A stretch of DNA of 33,791 nucleotides. Origin: Elusimicrobia bacterium GWB2_63_22 (GTDB taxonomy: Bacteria; Elusimicrobiota; Elusimicrobia; Elusimicrobiales; UBA9959). The notes beneath the pieces were generated by a model. It saw nothing but the letters and a program-made list of their open reading frames with translations. It searched no databases and was not told where the DNA came from. This document shows, one piece after another, positions 7,832-29,572 of the stretch. Each line of letters begins with the position of its first letter. Positions within the stretch are counted from its first letter, which is position 1. The stretch covers positions 1 to 33,791 of the forward strand of contig MGUA01000025.1 in assembly GCA_001799735.1 (NCBI GenBank), given 5' to 3'. The translations under genes were made by a program, and so were the position numbers.

Positions 7832-9373
7832 TCAGCCGTTGGCCGGGTCCCGCACGGTATGCGTCATTTTTTTGTACGCCATTATCAGCCGCATGTCCAG
7901 GTTGAACCCCCACAGCTGGTGGCGGATCCTGAAGTTGGAGGTCGCCTTGAGCACCTTGAAGGCCAGCTTTTTGAGCGGGCCGAAATTAAAGGCGTCGATG
8001 TTGATGTTCACGAAATCCATGTAGAAAGAGACCTTCCGGATATATTCCTTGTCCGGGATCCAGACCAGTTTCTCCACGTCCTCGAAGCCCGTAAGCGGCA
8101 CGACCGATTCGCTCCAGCCGGCGACCGTCTGCGGCTGTTGGTAGCCGTATTTCTGCACGCATTCCTCGTACAGTTCCCCGCCCGGGTAGGGGCGGAAGAT
8201 CTGCGGGCCGATGATGGACACCTTGTTGTCCAGGGCCCGCAGTTTCTGTATCAGGAGCAGGGTGGCGTCGGTGTCGCTCTGCTCCTCGCCGGGCAGGCCC
8301 ATCATGAAGGAAAAGGTCACGCCCAGGCCGTGCTTGACTATAAGCTCGGCCGACTGGCGGATCTGGGCGACGGTGATCTCCTTCTTGAGCTTGTCTAATA
8401 TCCTCTGCGAGCCGGACTCGGCCCCGATCGAGAGGTAATAGAGGCCGACGTCCTTGAGCCTTTCAAGCAGGGGCTCGTCCACCAGCTTCCGGTCGAAGGC
8501 GTCCGCGCGCATGGAGGTGTACCAGTTGAACTTCAGCCCCCGCTTCTTTATCTCGTTGGCGAAATTTTCCGGGTGGTCGCGCCTGACGAAGAAATTCTCG
8601 TCGAGGAAATCGAAATAATCCAGGCCGAACTCCCGGGTCAGGTAGGCCAGCTCGTCGGCCAGGCGGCCCGCGGATTTGGTCCGGTACCCGCCGAAGGCCA
8701 GGCGCTTGTTGGCGTTAACGCAGAAGGTGCACCGGTAGGGGCAGCCGACGCTGGAGATGATGACGCCGGAGTTGACGCGCATCGCCTCCCGGCCCCTGCC
8801 GACGCTGCGGACCCGGTACTTGGAATAGTCTATCAGGTGGTAGTTCAGGAAAGGCAGCGAATCCAGGTCGTTGGGGGCCCTGCGGCCGGTAAAGACCAGC
8901 TCCCCGCCCGACAGGAAATACAGGCCCTTTACGGACCGCGGGTCGGCGTTGCCGCGCAGCGCCGCCAGCAGCTCTTGCGTGGTGTACTCTCCCTCTCCGA
9001 CGCAGACAAAGTCGGCGACGCCTTCCCGCAGGACCTGCTCCGGGAACAGCGTGGGATGGATGCCGCCCCAGATGACGCGGGTGCCGGGGTAACGGGTCTT
9101 TACATGCCGGGACAGTTCAGCGGCGTGCCGGACCTGGCTGGTCATCACCGTGAAGCCTACCAGCAGGACCTGGCCCGGGGCCGCGTCCAGGTGCCGCGAC
9201 AGGAGGCCGACGGGGTCCTCCTCCGCCACCATGTCCAGGACGAAGGAGCTCACGCCGCTGCGCTCCAGGAAGCTGGCGATGGTCAGCAGGCTGGCGGGAG
9301 GATAGGGGATCGGCGTCTGGATGTAGTGGTAGGCAGAACGCGGGTTAATGAGAAGGCACTCGTGCGTTTTCAT
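7832..9373 (-). CDS. Radical SAM protein with N-terminal B12-binding-fold domain
   Basis: It has 513 residues. The N-terminal 150 residues form a cobalamin-binding-type Rossmann fold (LLINPRSAYH, VIWGGIHPTLFPEQVL, FVCVGEGE). The corrinoid ligand motif DxHxxG is not visible, as in BchE-like subgroups. The radical SAM core starts at SSVGCPYRCTFC, with the [4Fe-4S] cysteines C211, C215 and C218, followed by the barrel segments LDYFDFLDENFF and LSIGAESGSQRILDKLKK. The C-terminal extension of about 120 residues is unassigned. It sits in a run with methyltransferases and a flippase in the glycan locus. It may catalyse methylation, ring modification or another radical step on a sugar or lipid carrier. 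A TATAAT box eight bases before the ATG suggests its own promoter. Confidence 0.85.
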   Translation of the reverse strand: MKTHECLLINPRSAYHYIQTPIPYPPASLLTIASFLERSGVSSFVLDMVAEEDPVGLLSRHLDAAPGQVLLVGFTVMTSQVRHAAELSRHVKTRYPGTRVIWGGIHPTLFPEQVLREGVADFVCVGEGEYTTQELLAALRGNADPRSVKGLYFLSGGELVFTGRRAPNDLDSLPFLNYHLIDYSKYRVRSVGRGREAMRVNSGVIISSVGCPYRCTFCVNANKRLAFGGYRTKSAGRLADELAYLTREFGLDYFDFLDENFFVRRDHPENFANEIKKRGLKFNWYTSMRADAFDRKLVDEPLLERLKDVGLYYLSIGAESGSQRILDKLKKEITVAQIRQSAELIVKHGLGVTFSFMMGLPGEEQSDTDATLLLIQKLRALDNKVSIIGPQIFRPYPGGELYEECVQKYGYQQPQTVAGWSESVVPLTGFEDVEKLVWIPDKEYIRKVSFYMDFVNINIDAFNFGPLKKLAFKVLKATSNFRIRHQLWGFNLDMRLIMAYKKMTHTVRDPANG

Positions 9374-13389: not shown

Positions 13390-14309
13390 GGCGCGCTTTT
13401 TCCAAAGCTCTCTGCGACGCCGCCGAAAAAGATCCCGGCGTGGTCTTCCTCACGGGCGACCTTGGCTTCCAGGTCTTCGACGATTTCGTGGCCAGGTTCG
13501 GGCCGCGCTACATCAATGTCGGCATCGCCGAGGCCCAGATGGTGGCCATGGCCTCCGGCCTGGCCAAGGAAGGCTTCCGTCCCATCGCCTACTCCATCGC
13601 CTCGTTCATGACGGCGCGCCCCTTCGAGCAGATCCGTGTCTGCGTCTCCTACCCTAACCTGCCCGTGCTGCTGGTCGGGGCCGGCGGCGGCTACGCCTAT
13701 TCTTCCAGCGGCGTCACCCATCACGCCGGGGACGACCTGGCCCTGATGTCCCTGCTGCCCGGCATGACGGTGACGGCCCCCTGCGACCCTTCCGAGATAG
13801 AGCTGCTGCTGCCCCAGCTGCTCAAGCTCGACGGGCCTTCCTATATGCGTGTGGGCAAGTTCGGCGAGCCCGCGGTCCCGGCGCTGGAGGCGCCCGTGCT
13901 GGGCAAGGCCCGGCTCCTGCAGCGGGGCGCCAAGGTGGCCGTCCTGACCACCGGCGACATGGCGGCTCCGGCGCAGGCCGCGGTAAAGGAACTCGCCGTG
14001 GAAGGCATCTCCCCGCTGCTGTATCATTTTCACACCGTAAAACCCCTGGATACCGGAACGCTCGAGCTGATAGCCGCCGCTGCCGGCACCCTGATAGTGG
14101 TGGAGGAGGCGTCCCCGCACGGCGGGCTCGCGGCCTCCGTGGCCGGCTGGCTGGCGGCCGGCGGGCGCGGGACGCGCCTGGTGCGGCTGGGCCCGCCCGA
14201 CAGTTTCTTTTTCGGCAGCCTGTCCCGCGAGACCTATGCCGCGCGGCAGGGCTACGACAAGAAAGGGATAATGGAGGCCTGCCGGAAAGTTTGGCGGCAG
14301 GCGGCTTAA
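13386..14309 (+). CDS. Transketolase C-terminal (pyrimidine-binding) subunit
   Basis: This is the second half of the split transketolase, 307 residues. It carries VGIAEAQMV (45-53) with the conserved Glu (E49) that activates the TPP aminopyrimidine, and SFMTARPFEQIR (73-84). A C-terminal transketolase domain follows (AKVAVLTTGDMA, LLYHFHTVKPLD, LIVVEEASPHGG). I start it at ATG 13386, which overlaps the stop of the N-subunit. A longer frame back to 13302 lies inside that gene. It ends 11 bases before the radical SAM gene and is probably co-transcribed with it. The two subunits together make one active site across the dimer interface. Confidence 0.92.
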   Translation: MRRAFSKALCDAAEKDPGVVFLTGDLGFQVFDDFVARFGPRYINVGIAEAQMVAMASGLAKEGFRPIAYSIASFMTARPFEQIRVCVSYPNLPVLLVGAGGGYAYSSSGVTHHAGDDLALMSLLPGMTVTAPCDPSEIELLLPQLLKLDGPSYMRVGKFGEPAVPALEAPVLGKARLLQRGAKVAVLTTGDMAAPAQAAVKELAVEGISPLLYHFHTVKPLDTGTLELIAAAAGTLIVVEEASPHGGLAASVAGWLAAGGRGTRLVRLGPPDSFFFGSLSRETYAARQGYDKKGIMEACRKVWRQAA

Positions 14310-14320
14310 AGAATTTACCT

Positions 14321-15802
14321 ATGGCAGAAAGACTCAACCTCCTCCTCGTCAACGTCGGCGGCACCAAGAAGAAGGTGTACCAGGACCTCAGCAAGGATTA
14401 CTCCGCCGTGGAGCCCCCGTTCTGGGCGGCCCTGATGGCGGGGTTCGTGCGCAAGAACGGCTTTACCGTGGACATCCTCGACGCCAACGTCCGCAACCTG
14501 AGCATAGAGGAGACGGCGCGGGAGATAACGGCCCGCAACGCCGAGATGACGGCCATAGTGGTGTACAGCCAGCAGGCCAACACCTGCGCGCCCATCATGG
14601 GCGGCGTAGGCGAGCTCTGCCGCCAGGTAAAAAAGCTGGCCCCGGACCACAAGGTCATCCTCACCGGCTGGCATCCCTCGGCCCTGCCCGAGCGCACCAT
14701 CCGCGAAGAGGCCTGTGACCTGCTGATCCAGGGCGAGGGTTTCTACCCGCTGCTGGGCGTGCTGCAGAAGAAGCCGAATGAGCAGGTGCCCGGCCTGTGG
14801 TGGCGGGAGGGGGGCGAGATCCGCCACAACGCCCGCGGTTCCAATATAGAGAATTTAACGGGGGAACTCAGCGACGTGGCCTGGGACCTGCTGCCGCTGG
14901 CCGGCGGGGAGTACCGGGCTTTCAACTGGATGACCCTGCAGAGCCTGGAGACGCGCAACCATTACGCGTCCATCTTCACCAGCCTGGGCTGTCCCTATAA
15001 ATGTTCCTTCTGCGCCATCCACGCCACGTTCGGCGAGCGCCGCATCCGCAACTGGAGCCCTGACTGGGCGCTGCGCCAGTTCGATATCCTGGCCCGCGAC
15101 TACGGCGTAAAACATATCAACCTGATAGACGAGCTCTACGTCTTCGACGCCAGGCATTACCTGCCCATCGCCGAGGGGCTGCTGCAGAGGGAGTATAAAC
15201 TGAATTTCTGCGCCTTCGCCCGGGTGGACCGGGTGGACGCGATGGATATCGCCGAGCTGAAGCTGCTGAAGAAGGCCGGCTTCAACTGGTTAAAACTCGG
15301 CATCGAGTCCAGCAGCGCGGCGGTGCTGTCCAAGGCCCATAAGGGCAAGTACGACCAGGATATAGTCCGGCGGGTGGTGGGTAAGATCCACGAGGCCGGC
15401 ATAGACCTGTGCGCCAATTTCATCTTCGGCCTGCCCGGCGACACCTGGGAGAGCATGCAGCAGACGCTGAACCTCGCTTTCGAGCTGAACTGCGCCTTCC
15501 CCAGCTTTTTCTGCGCGATGGCCGCCCCCGGCTCCGACCTTTACAACGAGGCGCTGGCCAACGGCACGGCGCTGCCCGACAAGTGGGAAGGCTTCGCGCA
15601 GCAGGGCTACGACTTCCTGCCGCTCGGCACCGAAACGCTCTCCGCCGCCGACGTGCTGCGGTTCAGGGACTACGCTTTCGACGCCTATTTCCGCAACCCG
15701 CGCTACCTGGCCTCCATAGAAAAGAAATTCGGCGCCGCCGCCCGCGAACACGTGGAAGGCATGGCGAAGATAAAACTCAAAAGAAAATTACTGGGAGATT
15801 AG
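14321..15802 (+). CDS. Radical SAM protein with N-terminal B12-binding-fold domain
   Basis: This second B12-fold radical SAM protein of the locus has 493 residues and is only broadly similar to the one on the minus strand. The N-domain has LLLVNVGG, a Rossmann-like core and VILTGWHPSALPERT, without a DxHxxG corrinoid motif. The core starts TSLGCPYKCSFC with C224, C228 and C231 as [4Fe-4S] ligands. It continues with INLIDELYVFDA and WLKLGIESSSAAVL, which are typical SAM-barrel strands. It follows the transketolase pair by 11 bases. ATG 14321 is chosen over a TTG at 14291 that lies inside the previous gene. The reaction is unknown; an unusual radical rearrangement, epimerisation or methylation of a glycan precursor is possible. 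Confidence 0.85.
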   Translation: MAERLNLLLVNVGGTKKKVYQDLSKDYSAVEPPFWAALMAGFVRKNGFTVDILDANVRNLSIEETAREITARNAEMTAIVVYSQQANTCAPIMGGVGELCRQVKKLAPDHKVILTGWHPSALPERTIREEACDLLIQGEGFYPLLGVLQKKPNEQVPGLWWREGGEIRHNARGSNIENLTGELSDVAWDLLPLAGGEYRAFNWMTLQSLETRNHYASIFTSLGCPYKCSFCAIHATFGERRIRNWSPDWALRQFDILARDYGVKHINLIDELYVFDARHYLPIAEGLLQREYKLNFCAFARVDRVDAMDIAELKLLKKAGFNWLKLGIESSSAAVLSKAHKGKYDQDIVRRVVGKIHEAGIDLCANFIFGLPGDTWESMQQTLNLAFELNCAFPSFFCAMAAPGSDLYNEALANGTALPDKWEGFAQQGYDFLPLGTETLSAADVLRFRDYAFDAYFRNPRYLASIEKKFGAAAREHVEGMAKIKLKRKLLGD

Positions 15803-22743: not shown

Positions 22744-24243
22744 TTAGCGGTAGTACCTGTCGGGGTTGTAGATGAAGTAGAAGTCGAACGGCTCCAGCCG
22801 CGGCAGCGTGACGAAACGCTGGCCTTTCTCGTCGAGCTTCTCGTCCAGGGGGAGCGAGGAGGCGTAGCGCGCCGCCGGGCGGGTCACCGGCTTTTCATCC
22901 GGGTTCTTCACTATGCCGGTCTCTTCGATCTCCTCCACCACGTTGGTGGCCCATTTGTAGCCCACCGCCTTGTCGCCGAACTCCTCCCAGTCGCCGTCGG
23001 AGTTCTTTTCGTACATCTTCTTGCGGAACTCCTCTATGGAGATCCCCATTTTCTTGCTGACCGGGACGTGCAGGCGCCGCTCCCATTCCTTGTTGAGCTC
23101 CAGCTGTTCCTTCATCTGGGTCATGTTGCCCCAGGCGAAAGAGGACATCTGGTGGTGCAGGATGATGGCGTTGGGGTAGACGTAGGACTTGTCGGCCAGC
23201 GTGGTTATGACCGCCGCCATGCTGGCGGCGTAGGAGCGCACCACCACGTGCACCGGGGCCTTGGAGGCCTGCATCGCCTTGACGATGCGGTAGCCCTCCA
23301 TCACGGAGCCGCCGGGGCTCATGTCGATCACTATGAAGATCGGCTGCGTGGAGATGTTGTTGAAGTAGTGGATGCGCTCCGTAACGTAGTCGGCCACGCC
23401 GGTGAAGATGGGGCCGTTGAGCGCTATGCGCCGGTCGCTGATGACCAGCTTGCCGTTGGCGAAGGGCTTTTCGGTATAGACCGGCTCGGTGTTGCTCTCC
23501 TTCTTCCACTCGGATCTCTTGACGCGCAGCTCCAGGTCGCTGTTGAGCCGGGCTATGCGGTTGTCCAGTTCCGCCTTCTCGAACTTGAGCAGGCGCTCCG
23601 CGAGGTCCAGGCGCTTAATTTTGAGATCGATCTCGTTGCGCTCCTTGCTGTCGGCCAGCAGGTCCATGCGCTGCTGTTCGGCCTTCATGTCGTTCTCGGC
23701 CTTCATGCGGGCTATCTTGGCGGCCAGCTCGCTCATGAGCTTCTTGTTTTTTTCTTCGGCCAGCTTGTTCTCCACGGCCAGCCTGGCCAGTTCTTCGCCC
23801 TGGGCCGAGGCGAGGGCCTTGGCCTGCTCGGCGGAAAGCTTGTTCTGCGAGGCCAGCTTCAGGTATTCGGTCTCCAGCCTGGCCAGGTCGGCCTTGCGCT
23901 TCTCGTCGGCCAGCTTGTTCTCCGAGGCGGTGCGGGAGAGCTCGGCTTCGAGTTCCGAGGTTTTGGCCTTCTGCCGCTGCAGTTCCAGCTCGTGCTGGGC
24001 CCTCAGTTCTTCCTTTTCGGCCGTGACCTGGTGCAGTTTCTTCTTGAGGCGCTGGTCGGCTATCTGGTTATCGGCGCTCAGCTTGGCGAGCTCCGTCTGT
24101 TCGGGCGAAGGCTGCGCGGGGGCGGGCGGCGTAGCCATTGACTGCGCCTGCTGCCGGGGTTGGACCGCCGGGTCCTGGGCGGCGGCCGCGGGGGCGGCGG
24201 CGCAGAAGAGCAGGGCTGGCAGCAACAGTTTGCGTATGGACAT
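22744..24243 (-). CDS. Exported ClpP/SDH-type serine protease with long periodic coiled coil
   Basis: This 499-residue exported protein starts with a signal peptide (MSIRKLLLPALLFCAAAPAAAAQ) and a Pro/Gln-rich linker. Residues about 50-245 are a charged coiled coil built on a 25-residue period: L-x-x-x-N-x-L-like units recur at 55, 80, 105, 130, 155 and 180, with Asn at 59, 109, 134, 159 and 184. Residues 265-445 are a ClpP-fold domain. It has IDMSPGGSVMEGY (oxyanion region), nucleophile Ser341 in SYAASMAAV, His364 in IILHHQM and an acidic residue near D416/D418 in NSDGDW. GGAG precedes ATG 24243. The longer frame to 24315 would destroy the signal peptide. No ATPase partner is near. It could be an ATP-independent envelope protease. 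Confidence 0.8.
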   Translation of the reverse strand: MSIRKLLLPALLFCAAAPAAAAQDPAVQPRQQAQSMATPPAPAQPSPEQTELAKLSADNQIADQRLKKKLHQVTAEKEELRAQHELELQRQKAKTSELEAELSRTASENKLADEKRKADLARLETEYLKLASQNKLSAEQAKALASAQGEELARLAVENKLAEEKNKKLMSELAAKIARMKAENDMKAEQQRMDLLADSKERNEIDLKIKRLDLAERLLKFEKAELDNRIARLNSDLELRVKRSEWKKESNTEPVYTEKPFANGKLVISDRRIALNGPIFTGVADYVTERIHYFNNISTQPIFIVIDMSPGGSVMEGYRIVKAMQASKAPVHVVVRSYAASMAAVITTLADKSYVYPNAIILHHQMSSFAWGNMTQMKEQLELNKEWERRLHVPVSKKMGISIEEFRKKMYEKNSDGDWEEFGDKAVGYKWATNVVEEIEETGIVKNPDEKPVTRPAARYASSLPLDEKLDEKGQRFVTLPRLEPFDFYFIYNPDRYYR

Positions 24244-28660: not shown

Positions 28661-29572
28661 ATGAAGATAGTTTTTTCCAAAGACTATACCGTTAAAACTC
28701 CCGGCCACGTGTTCCGGGCGGACAAGTTCGAGGCCGCTCTGAAATTGCTGCTGCGCGAGGGGATTGTTTCAGAGAGCGACGTGGCCGCCCCGCGGCCTCC
28801 TGTAAGGGCCGACCTGCTGCTGGCGCACGGCCCGGCCTGGGTGGACAAGAGCCTCCGGGGCGGGTTCACCGCAGAAGATTCCAAACGGGCGGAAATTGAG
28901 ATAAGCCGGGGCGTGGTGCGGGCGCACCTGGCCAACGTGGGCGGCACGGTGCTGGCTGCCCGGCTGGCCCTGGCCGAAGGTCTGGCCGTCAACTGCGGCG
29001 GCGGCTCCCATCACGCTTTCCGGGACCACGGCGAAGGCTTCTGCCTGCTCAACGACATCGCCGTGGCCGTGAGGCTGCTGCTTAAGGAGCGCCGGGTAGC
29101 GCGCGCCATGGTGATAGACCTCGACGCCCACCAGGGCAACGGCACGGCCTCTATTTTTAAGGGCGACAGGCGTGTCTTCACTTTTTCCATGCACGGCGCC
29201 GAGACCTACCCCGAAAAGAAAGAGAGGGGGTCCCTGGACCTGGAATTAAAACCTAACATCGGCGACCTGGAGTACCTGGCCCTCCTGCGGCGGGAGCTGC
29301 CGCGGGCGCTGGACGGGTTCAAGCCGGAGTTCGCCTTGTACGTGGCCGGGGCCGACGTTTACCGTGGCGACCTGCTGGGCGGCCTGGGGCTGAGCGTCGG
29401 GGGGATACGCAGGCGCGACGCCTTTGTGCTGGCCGAATGCCGCCGCCGCGGCTTGCCAGTGGCGGCGGTCCTGAGCGGCGGCTACGCCAGGAAGTTCACC
29501 GACACCGTCCGCATCCACGCCAATACCATACGGGAAGCCCTCAGGGCGGGCAAACTTCAGAGTGAGGAATAA
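28661..29572 (+). CDS. Histone-deacetylase-superfamily (AcuC/Hdac-like) amidohydrolase
   Basis: This is a zinc-dependent deacetylase-fold enzyme of 303 residues. The active-site His pair is H117-H118 in GGGSHHAFRDHGEGFCLLND. Zinc ligands are D155 and H157 in VIDLDAHQGNGTA plus the Asp in VAGADVYRGD. The C-terminal LSGGYA supplies the transition-state Tyr. All catalytic residues are therefore present. Bacterial members act on acetylated polyamines, acetoin-related proteins or other small amides. The substrate here is unknown. It sits one base after lnt and one base before the regulator gene, so the three form one transcript. Confidence 0.9.
   Translation: MKIVFSKDYTVKTPGHVFRADKFEAALKLLLREGIVSESDVAAPRPPVRADLLLAHGPAWVDKSLRGGFTAEDSKRAEIEISRGVVRAHLANVGGTVLAARLALAEGLAVNCGGGSHHAFRDHGEGFCLLNDIAVAVRLLLKERRVARAMVIDLDAHQGNGTASIFKGDRRVFTFSMHGAETYPEKKERGSLDLELKPNIGDLEYLALLRRELPRALDGFKPEFALYVAGADVYRGDLLGGLGLSVGGIRRRDAFVLAECRRRGLPVAAVLSGGYARKFTDTVRIHANTIREALRAGKLQSEE

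Follow-up and report, generated by a model that had tools for sequence, protein, structure and literature searches.

ClpP is the textbook ATP-dependent, chambered protease of the cytosol. Some enzymes of the same fold function at membranes with no ATPase, among them NfeD/STOPP and SppA: NfeD1b and the SDH-type proteinases, both ClpP-fold serine peptidases, work close to membranes and have no AAA+ partner, and SppA, which belongs to the ClpP superfamily, is active on the exported side of the membrane. Neither the fold nor its occurrence at membranes without ATPases is new. In ClpP itself, a sensor Arg beside the catalytic Asp stabilizes the tetradecamer, which consists of two heptamers, and the Asp-Arg sensor and QXT motifs have both been described (PMC9035409). 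Among helical assemblies, helices with two separate hydrophobic seams lead to large barrels, whereas those of dimers have a single one (PMC6175849).

We analyzed a stretch of 33,791 nucleotides (hereafter the window) from Elusimicrobia bacterium GWB2_63_22. On its minus strand it carries a complete gene (22744..24243; ATG start, 499 residues and a stop codon) with full-length homologues at 35–76% identity, the extent of which had been given correctly in an original prediction of an exported ClpP-like protease fused to a coiled coil. Our own reading, to which we give slightly better than even credence, is that the product is an exported, ATP-independent ClpP-fold peptidase whose head would form a ring and whose two-seam stalk is adjusted in length by steps of 25 residues. 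What appears to be new is the combination of the ClpP fold with such a stalk and with a conserved C-terminal tail; we found no account of a coiled-coil-bearing, exported ClpP in the literature searched, which included few subscription journals. If this reading is true, the ClpP fold is exported without an ATPase in a manner conserved over several phyla, and the family would reveal how gating of a chambered protease is achieved without ATP. The stalk would also be a natural test of length quantization in whole 25-residue units, and from its two-seam helix a particular type of assembly is expected.

Peptidase Domain and Conserved Tail

Profile, model, and alignment all place a ClpP-fold peptidase domain at residues 265–440 (22924..23451, minus strand, as for all features of the gene given below). 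The window protein scored 72 bits with the CLP_protease profile (PF00574, family S14; cut-off 20.2; 6e-20), and the same Pfam profile was matched by 28 of the 28 family members scanned. The AlphaFold model of the domain was confident (pLDDT mostly >90). Compared by Foldseek with solved ClpPs, it gave E-values of about 4e-14 and target TM-scores of 0.75–0.86; the better fits, to the ClpPs of S. aureus, E. faecium, and T. thermophilus, superposed at 1.6–1.8 Å over ~170 columns. The fold, the order and spacing of the triad, the GGS oxyanion region, and the HQ motif are those of ClpP, and the handle is of similar length. This handle helix, located between His and Asp, spans residues 374–399 in the model, and the ClpP of the same genome aligns through it.

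The ClpP-type Ser-His pair and the acidic partner of the original prediction proved well founded. Ser341 (23221..23223) and His364, the second His of HHQ (23152..23154), are at the positions predicted, correspond in alignments to the nucleophile and the base of ClpP, and are invariant (73/73 sequences). The third triad member is Asp418 (22990..22992), aligned with the catalytic Asp in the RD of the ClpP motif TDRDYY; Asp is present at this position in 68 of 72 homologues and Asn in the other four. Given this conservation, the window protein is very likely an active peptidase.

Other characters set the family apart from ClpP. The position of the oligomerization-sensor Arg is occupied by Gly417 in all 72 sequences and the QXT motif reads N-x-T, and therefore ring stacking may differ from that of ClpP. 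Also, the family has a signal peptide, an N-terminal helix of ~195 residues replacing the axial loops, a tail of 30 residues, and no ATPase partner that we could find. Models specific for true ClpP were matched far below their cut-offs (TIGR00493, 34.3 versus 308.6 bits; PRK00277, 48.3 versus 249 bits). Matches to the relatives acting at membranes were weak as well: NfeD1b (PF25145) gave 22.0 bits for a cut-off of 40, the SDH-type ClpP-like proteinase (PF01972) 26.4 for 31.3, and SppA (TIGR00706) 22 for 155. The window protein is without the membrane part of NfeD, and it has the ClpP handle instead of the SppA arrangement. A ClpP-related head-maturation protease of phages (NF045542; 65.7 bits, below the cut-off of 120) likewise has the ClpP fold without an ATPase but, unlike the window protein, neither a signal peptide nor a coil.

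The tail (residues 470–499, 22747..22836) lies beyond every ClpP match. It reads LPRLxPFDFYFIYNPDRYYR in the window protein and, over its ~30 residues, is conserved across clades as LPRLxPFDFYFIYNPDxYYR. We can only speculate that it might cap the ATPase-docking site of the ClpP fold. One kiritimatiellal copy (L069 / L088) has lost the tail through a frameshift or a TGA codon, either by sequencing error or because the gene is decaying. The genome also encodes a separate canonical ClpP (L001:1489-2097), which apparently has Asn at the expected catalytic Asp (MERNFYLS) and reads AMSFGA around the Ser.

Export and Absence of an ATPase

Residues 1–22 (MSIRKLLLPALLFCAAAPAAAA; 24178..24243) have, as originally predicted, the characters of a signal peptide, with cleavage predicted before QD on the basis of the sequence and of homologue N-termini. 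A hydrophobic start with a small-x-small motif was present in 73 of 73 sequences, preceded by Lys or Arg in 70 of them; these counts are not fully independent, since the start codons of the homologues were picked partly for a signal-like N-terminus. The elements of a signal peptide, namely a charged n-region, a hydrophobic core, and a small-x-small motif, are each seen in 70–73 of the 73 homologues, and they strongly indicate that the window protein is exported. From this we infer a periplasmic location. Stretches exceeding the transmembrane threshold occur in many members, within the enzyme domain, with none in the coil. The signal peptide is followed by a Pro/Ala-rich linker (residues 23–50, 24094..24177) modeled with low confidence (pLDDT <50).

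In two verrucomicrobial loci (L096 and L097), one of two adjacent paralogues carries a lipobox (FAGC), which fits an envelope location. Adjacent pairs of family paralogues were seen in L096, L097, and L098 (genomes G690, G717, and G643), and the partner of the lipobox paralogue in L096 and L097 has QHQ instead of HHQ. Such pairing suggests a two-subunit, membrane-anchored version.

As proposed originally, no linked ATPase was detected, either within the gene or among the conserved neighbors of its homologues; export would preclude a partnership with ClpX, ClpA, or ClpC. It could be argued that the protein is a cytoplasmic ClpP variant whose N-terminal hydrophobic stretch is no working signal, the fold being normally cytosolic and the genome also having a canonical ClpP. 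We consider this very improbable, as signal-like N-termini are found in all clades and lipoboxes in two members, an ATPase partner is lacking, and the axial loops of ClpP are replaced.

A Long Helix with a 25-Residue Period

In the AlphaFold model, residues 56–250 (23494..24078) form one uninterrupted helix of ~195 residues and ~29 nm, in which the sequence displays a 25-residue period and two hydrophobic seams. A Thiotrichales member was likewise modeled with a single helix (residues 177–357). No solved relative of the helix was found, and neither the helix nor the tail is covered by a Pfam model.

The period, described originally as L-x-x-x-N-x-L units recurring every 25 residues, is real. 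Identity at lag 25 over residues 48–255 was 0.240, against 0.101 ± 0.022 in shuffles, of which 0 out of 2000 reached as high a value; identity at lag 50 was 0.247, and the hydrophobic autocorrelation at lag 25 was 0.40. The Asn residues at 59, 109, 134, 159, and 184 are all in place. The complete motif occurs unaltered only at 130 and 155; the units at 55 (LSADNQI), 80 (LRAQHEL), 105 (TASENKL), and 180 (MKAENDM) are degenerate, so that its strict recurrence stood only in part.

The period recurs in five clades, in which the pooled hydrophobic autocorrelation at lag 25 ranged between 0.20 and 0.42 (7–19 SD above shuffles), and lags 21 and 28 were near zero, the opposite of what a plain heptad coil would give. 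It is weak in the short verrucomicrobial coils. Among near Elusimicrobiota, Asn is commonest at one position of the unit (63%); in Thiotrichales it is commonest (52%) seven residues further on, and therefore the period has outlasted a shift in register.

Coil lengths were not random. Among 29 Elusimicrobiota-type sequences with a recognizable anchor, the distance between a conserved N-terminal motif and Arg240 was 115, 165, or 190 in 27, which thus differ only by whole 25-mers, the exceptions being 129 and 206. On the tree, at least four separate changes of coil length were whole multiples of 25. Neither of the two refuting outcomes named with the original prediction, coils of random length lacking the period or a Ser-His pair that does not match ClpP, was thus observed. 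A unit of 25 residues corresponds to seven helical turns, so that gain or loss of one leaves both seams in phase, which would account for the stepwise lengths.

The units of the window protein are pairwise 4–52% identical in protein and 27–61% in DNA, a strong divergence which argues against a recent tandem duplication. Nevertheless, identities of up to 52%, together with changes by whole units such as unequal recombination gives, could be taken to mean that the period arose as a side effect of tandem duplication and has no structural role. This explanation is already disfavored and appears scarcely credible to us, as the period persists across clades with differing unit sequence and register, and the hydrophobic signal at lag 25 outlasts residue identity.

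Two Hydrophobic Seams

A helical wheel with 7 turns to 25 residues sorted the hydrophobic residues into two groups, and in each of the four clades examined the second harmonic was larger than the first. The strongest hydrophobic spectral line lay at 2.26–2.30 residues in nearly all members, and the line near 3.57 was weak. The 2.28 line alone was rejected as proof of two seams because the control, six stretches of the SMC protein of the same genome, showed that heptads give a line at 2.33 too; therefore only the ratio to the line at 3.5–3.6 counts. The ratio of the 2.28 to the 3.57 line had a median of 5.0 in 51 members versus 0.66–1.12 in SMC. The contrast was weaker on the Kyte-Doolittle scale (median 7.6 versus 1.3–4.2). 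The helices of OEP (TolC family) from the same genome, a known barrel family, gave ratios of 0.8–2.0. The seams were separated by 161–180 degrees in three clades; in the nearest clade this separation was poorly fixed and the seam strengths were unequal. Deduction of a helix number from the seam angle was rejected, as the fits were unstable in the nearest clade and R2 was 0.52–0.63.

The dominance of hydrophobic power at ~3.5 residues that marks a two-stranded heptad coil was not found in the helix, and two separate seams per helix were found, as in the type-3 helices of large alpha-helical barrels (PMC6175849). The window family differs from the latter by its single uninterrupted helix, its 25-residue units, and its fusion to a protease. 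Two seams on nearly opposite faces suit side-by-side packing, in a large ring, a tube, or a sheet, better than a dimer. Thus the ordinary coiled coil stepping by 7+7+11 residues that had first been proposed is not what the hydrophobic pattern shows. With these opposite seams and without the sensor Arg, the assembly may depart both from the usual ClpP barrel and from the usual coil.

A more conventional explanation, which we hold to be possible although rather less probable, is that the exported ClpP-fold peptidase uses its helix as a spacer, a coiled coil of the common two- or three-stranded kind, the second seam being partial or binding something else. It would agree with the unequal seam strengths of the nearest clade, with the dependence of the seam ratio on the hydrophobicity scale, and with the presence of a core Asn once per unit, which small parallel coiled coils typically show. 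However, every clade has a weak first helical harmonic, unlike SMC, and a two- or three-fold coil would mismatch the seven-fold ring of ClpP.

The helix might also be the functional part of the protein, which would form an envelope filament, layer, or scaffold, with the ClpP domain only processing this scaffold or its partners. Two-seam helices can form sheets. They can form large cylinders as well, as in barrels (PMC6175849). The periodicity of the helix is as conserved as the sequence of the enzyme domain. We find this role improbable nonetheless, since sequence conservation is strongest in the peptidase domain and the tail, and filament proteins are absent among the neighbors.

Proposed Mechanism

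We return to the exported, ATP-independent peptidase with a two-seam stalk. Its signal peptide suggests that the protein would be exported by Sec, after which the C-terminal ClpP domain, with its complete triad, would assemble through the handle helix into a ring. The N-terminal helices of ~29 nm would leave this ring at its axial face, as they occupy the position that the axial loops have in ClpP. Each helix would touch two neighbors through a primary and a secondary seam located on nearly opposite sides, and therefore a tube or bundle of several helices is more probable for the stalk than a simple dimer. The self-assembly in the periplasm that the original prediction put forward, and the contact of its coil with the wall or outer membrane, are conjectural. 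The repeat (7 turns at 3.57 residues per turn) would keep the seams in register, with length changing only by whole units. Such a stalk may space or gate the peptidase, which would clip, without ATP, small or unfolded envelope polypeptides able to reach the chamber unaided. More tentatively, and with considerable doubt on our part, the helices of the ClpP ring could form a hollow tube of ~20–30 nm over the axial pore, acting in the periplasm as a passive conduit or length ruler, adjustable by steps of 3.7 nm, which feeds unfolded polypeptides to the chamber without ATP.

Distribution and Gene Neighborhoods

The period-25 design was found in five clades: two of Elusimicrobiota, Kiritimatiellota, Verrucomicrobiota, and Thiotrichales. 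Full-length relatives (>460 bits) were present in 45 of the 295 Elusimicrobiota genomes sampled, and none of them was found in a small-genome family (f2) of the same order. They were also present in two further samples, in 14 of 241 genomes from a kiritimatiellal member's phylum and in 3 of 229 genomes from the class to which a Thioploca member belongs; one copy came from a genome labeled Myxococcota (L054). A tree built from the enzyme domain kept the main taxonomic groups mostly apart. A phage or plasmid origin was rejected, as matches to phages and plasmids span the enzyme domain only, and so was a role as a defence system, for which PADLOC gave no match.

No neighbor was shared when neighborhoods were compared across phyla. 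The gene is adjoined by secA only in close relatives, and the Kiritimatiellota copies adjoin a thioesterase-like gene. In the window, a gene of the histone-deacetylase family (28661-29569, plus strand) lies directly 3′ of apolipoprotein N-acyltransferase and secA, and a peptidase of the clostripain family (C11; 31748-33025, plus strand; 5.5e-52) is encoded ~7.5 kb from the ClpP-coil gene. Two genes for B12-binding radical SAM proteins are also present (7832-9373, minus strand; 14291-15802, plus strand). Both have the surroundings of a surface-sugar region, with an epimerase, a GHMP kinase, an NTP transferase, a DegT aminotransferase, a glycosyltransferase, and MurJ. In Thiotrichales, the copies come after genes for REC and REC-GGDEF-EAL proteins. 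In giant sulfur bacteria (L070, L071, L072, L074, L078, and L083), the family gene lies 3′ of a single-domain response regulator and of a REC-GGDEF-EAL gene, and several genomes of these bacteria have two family copies.
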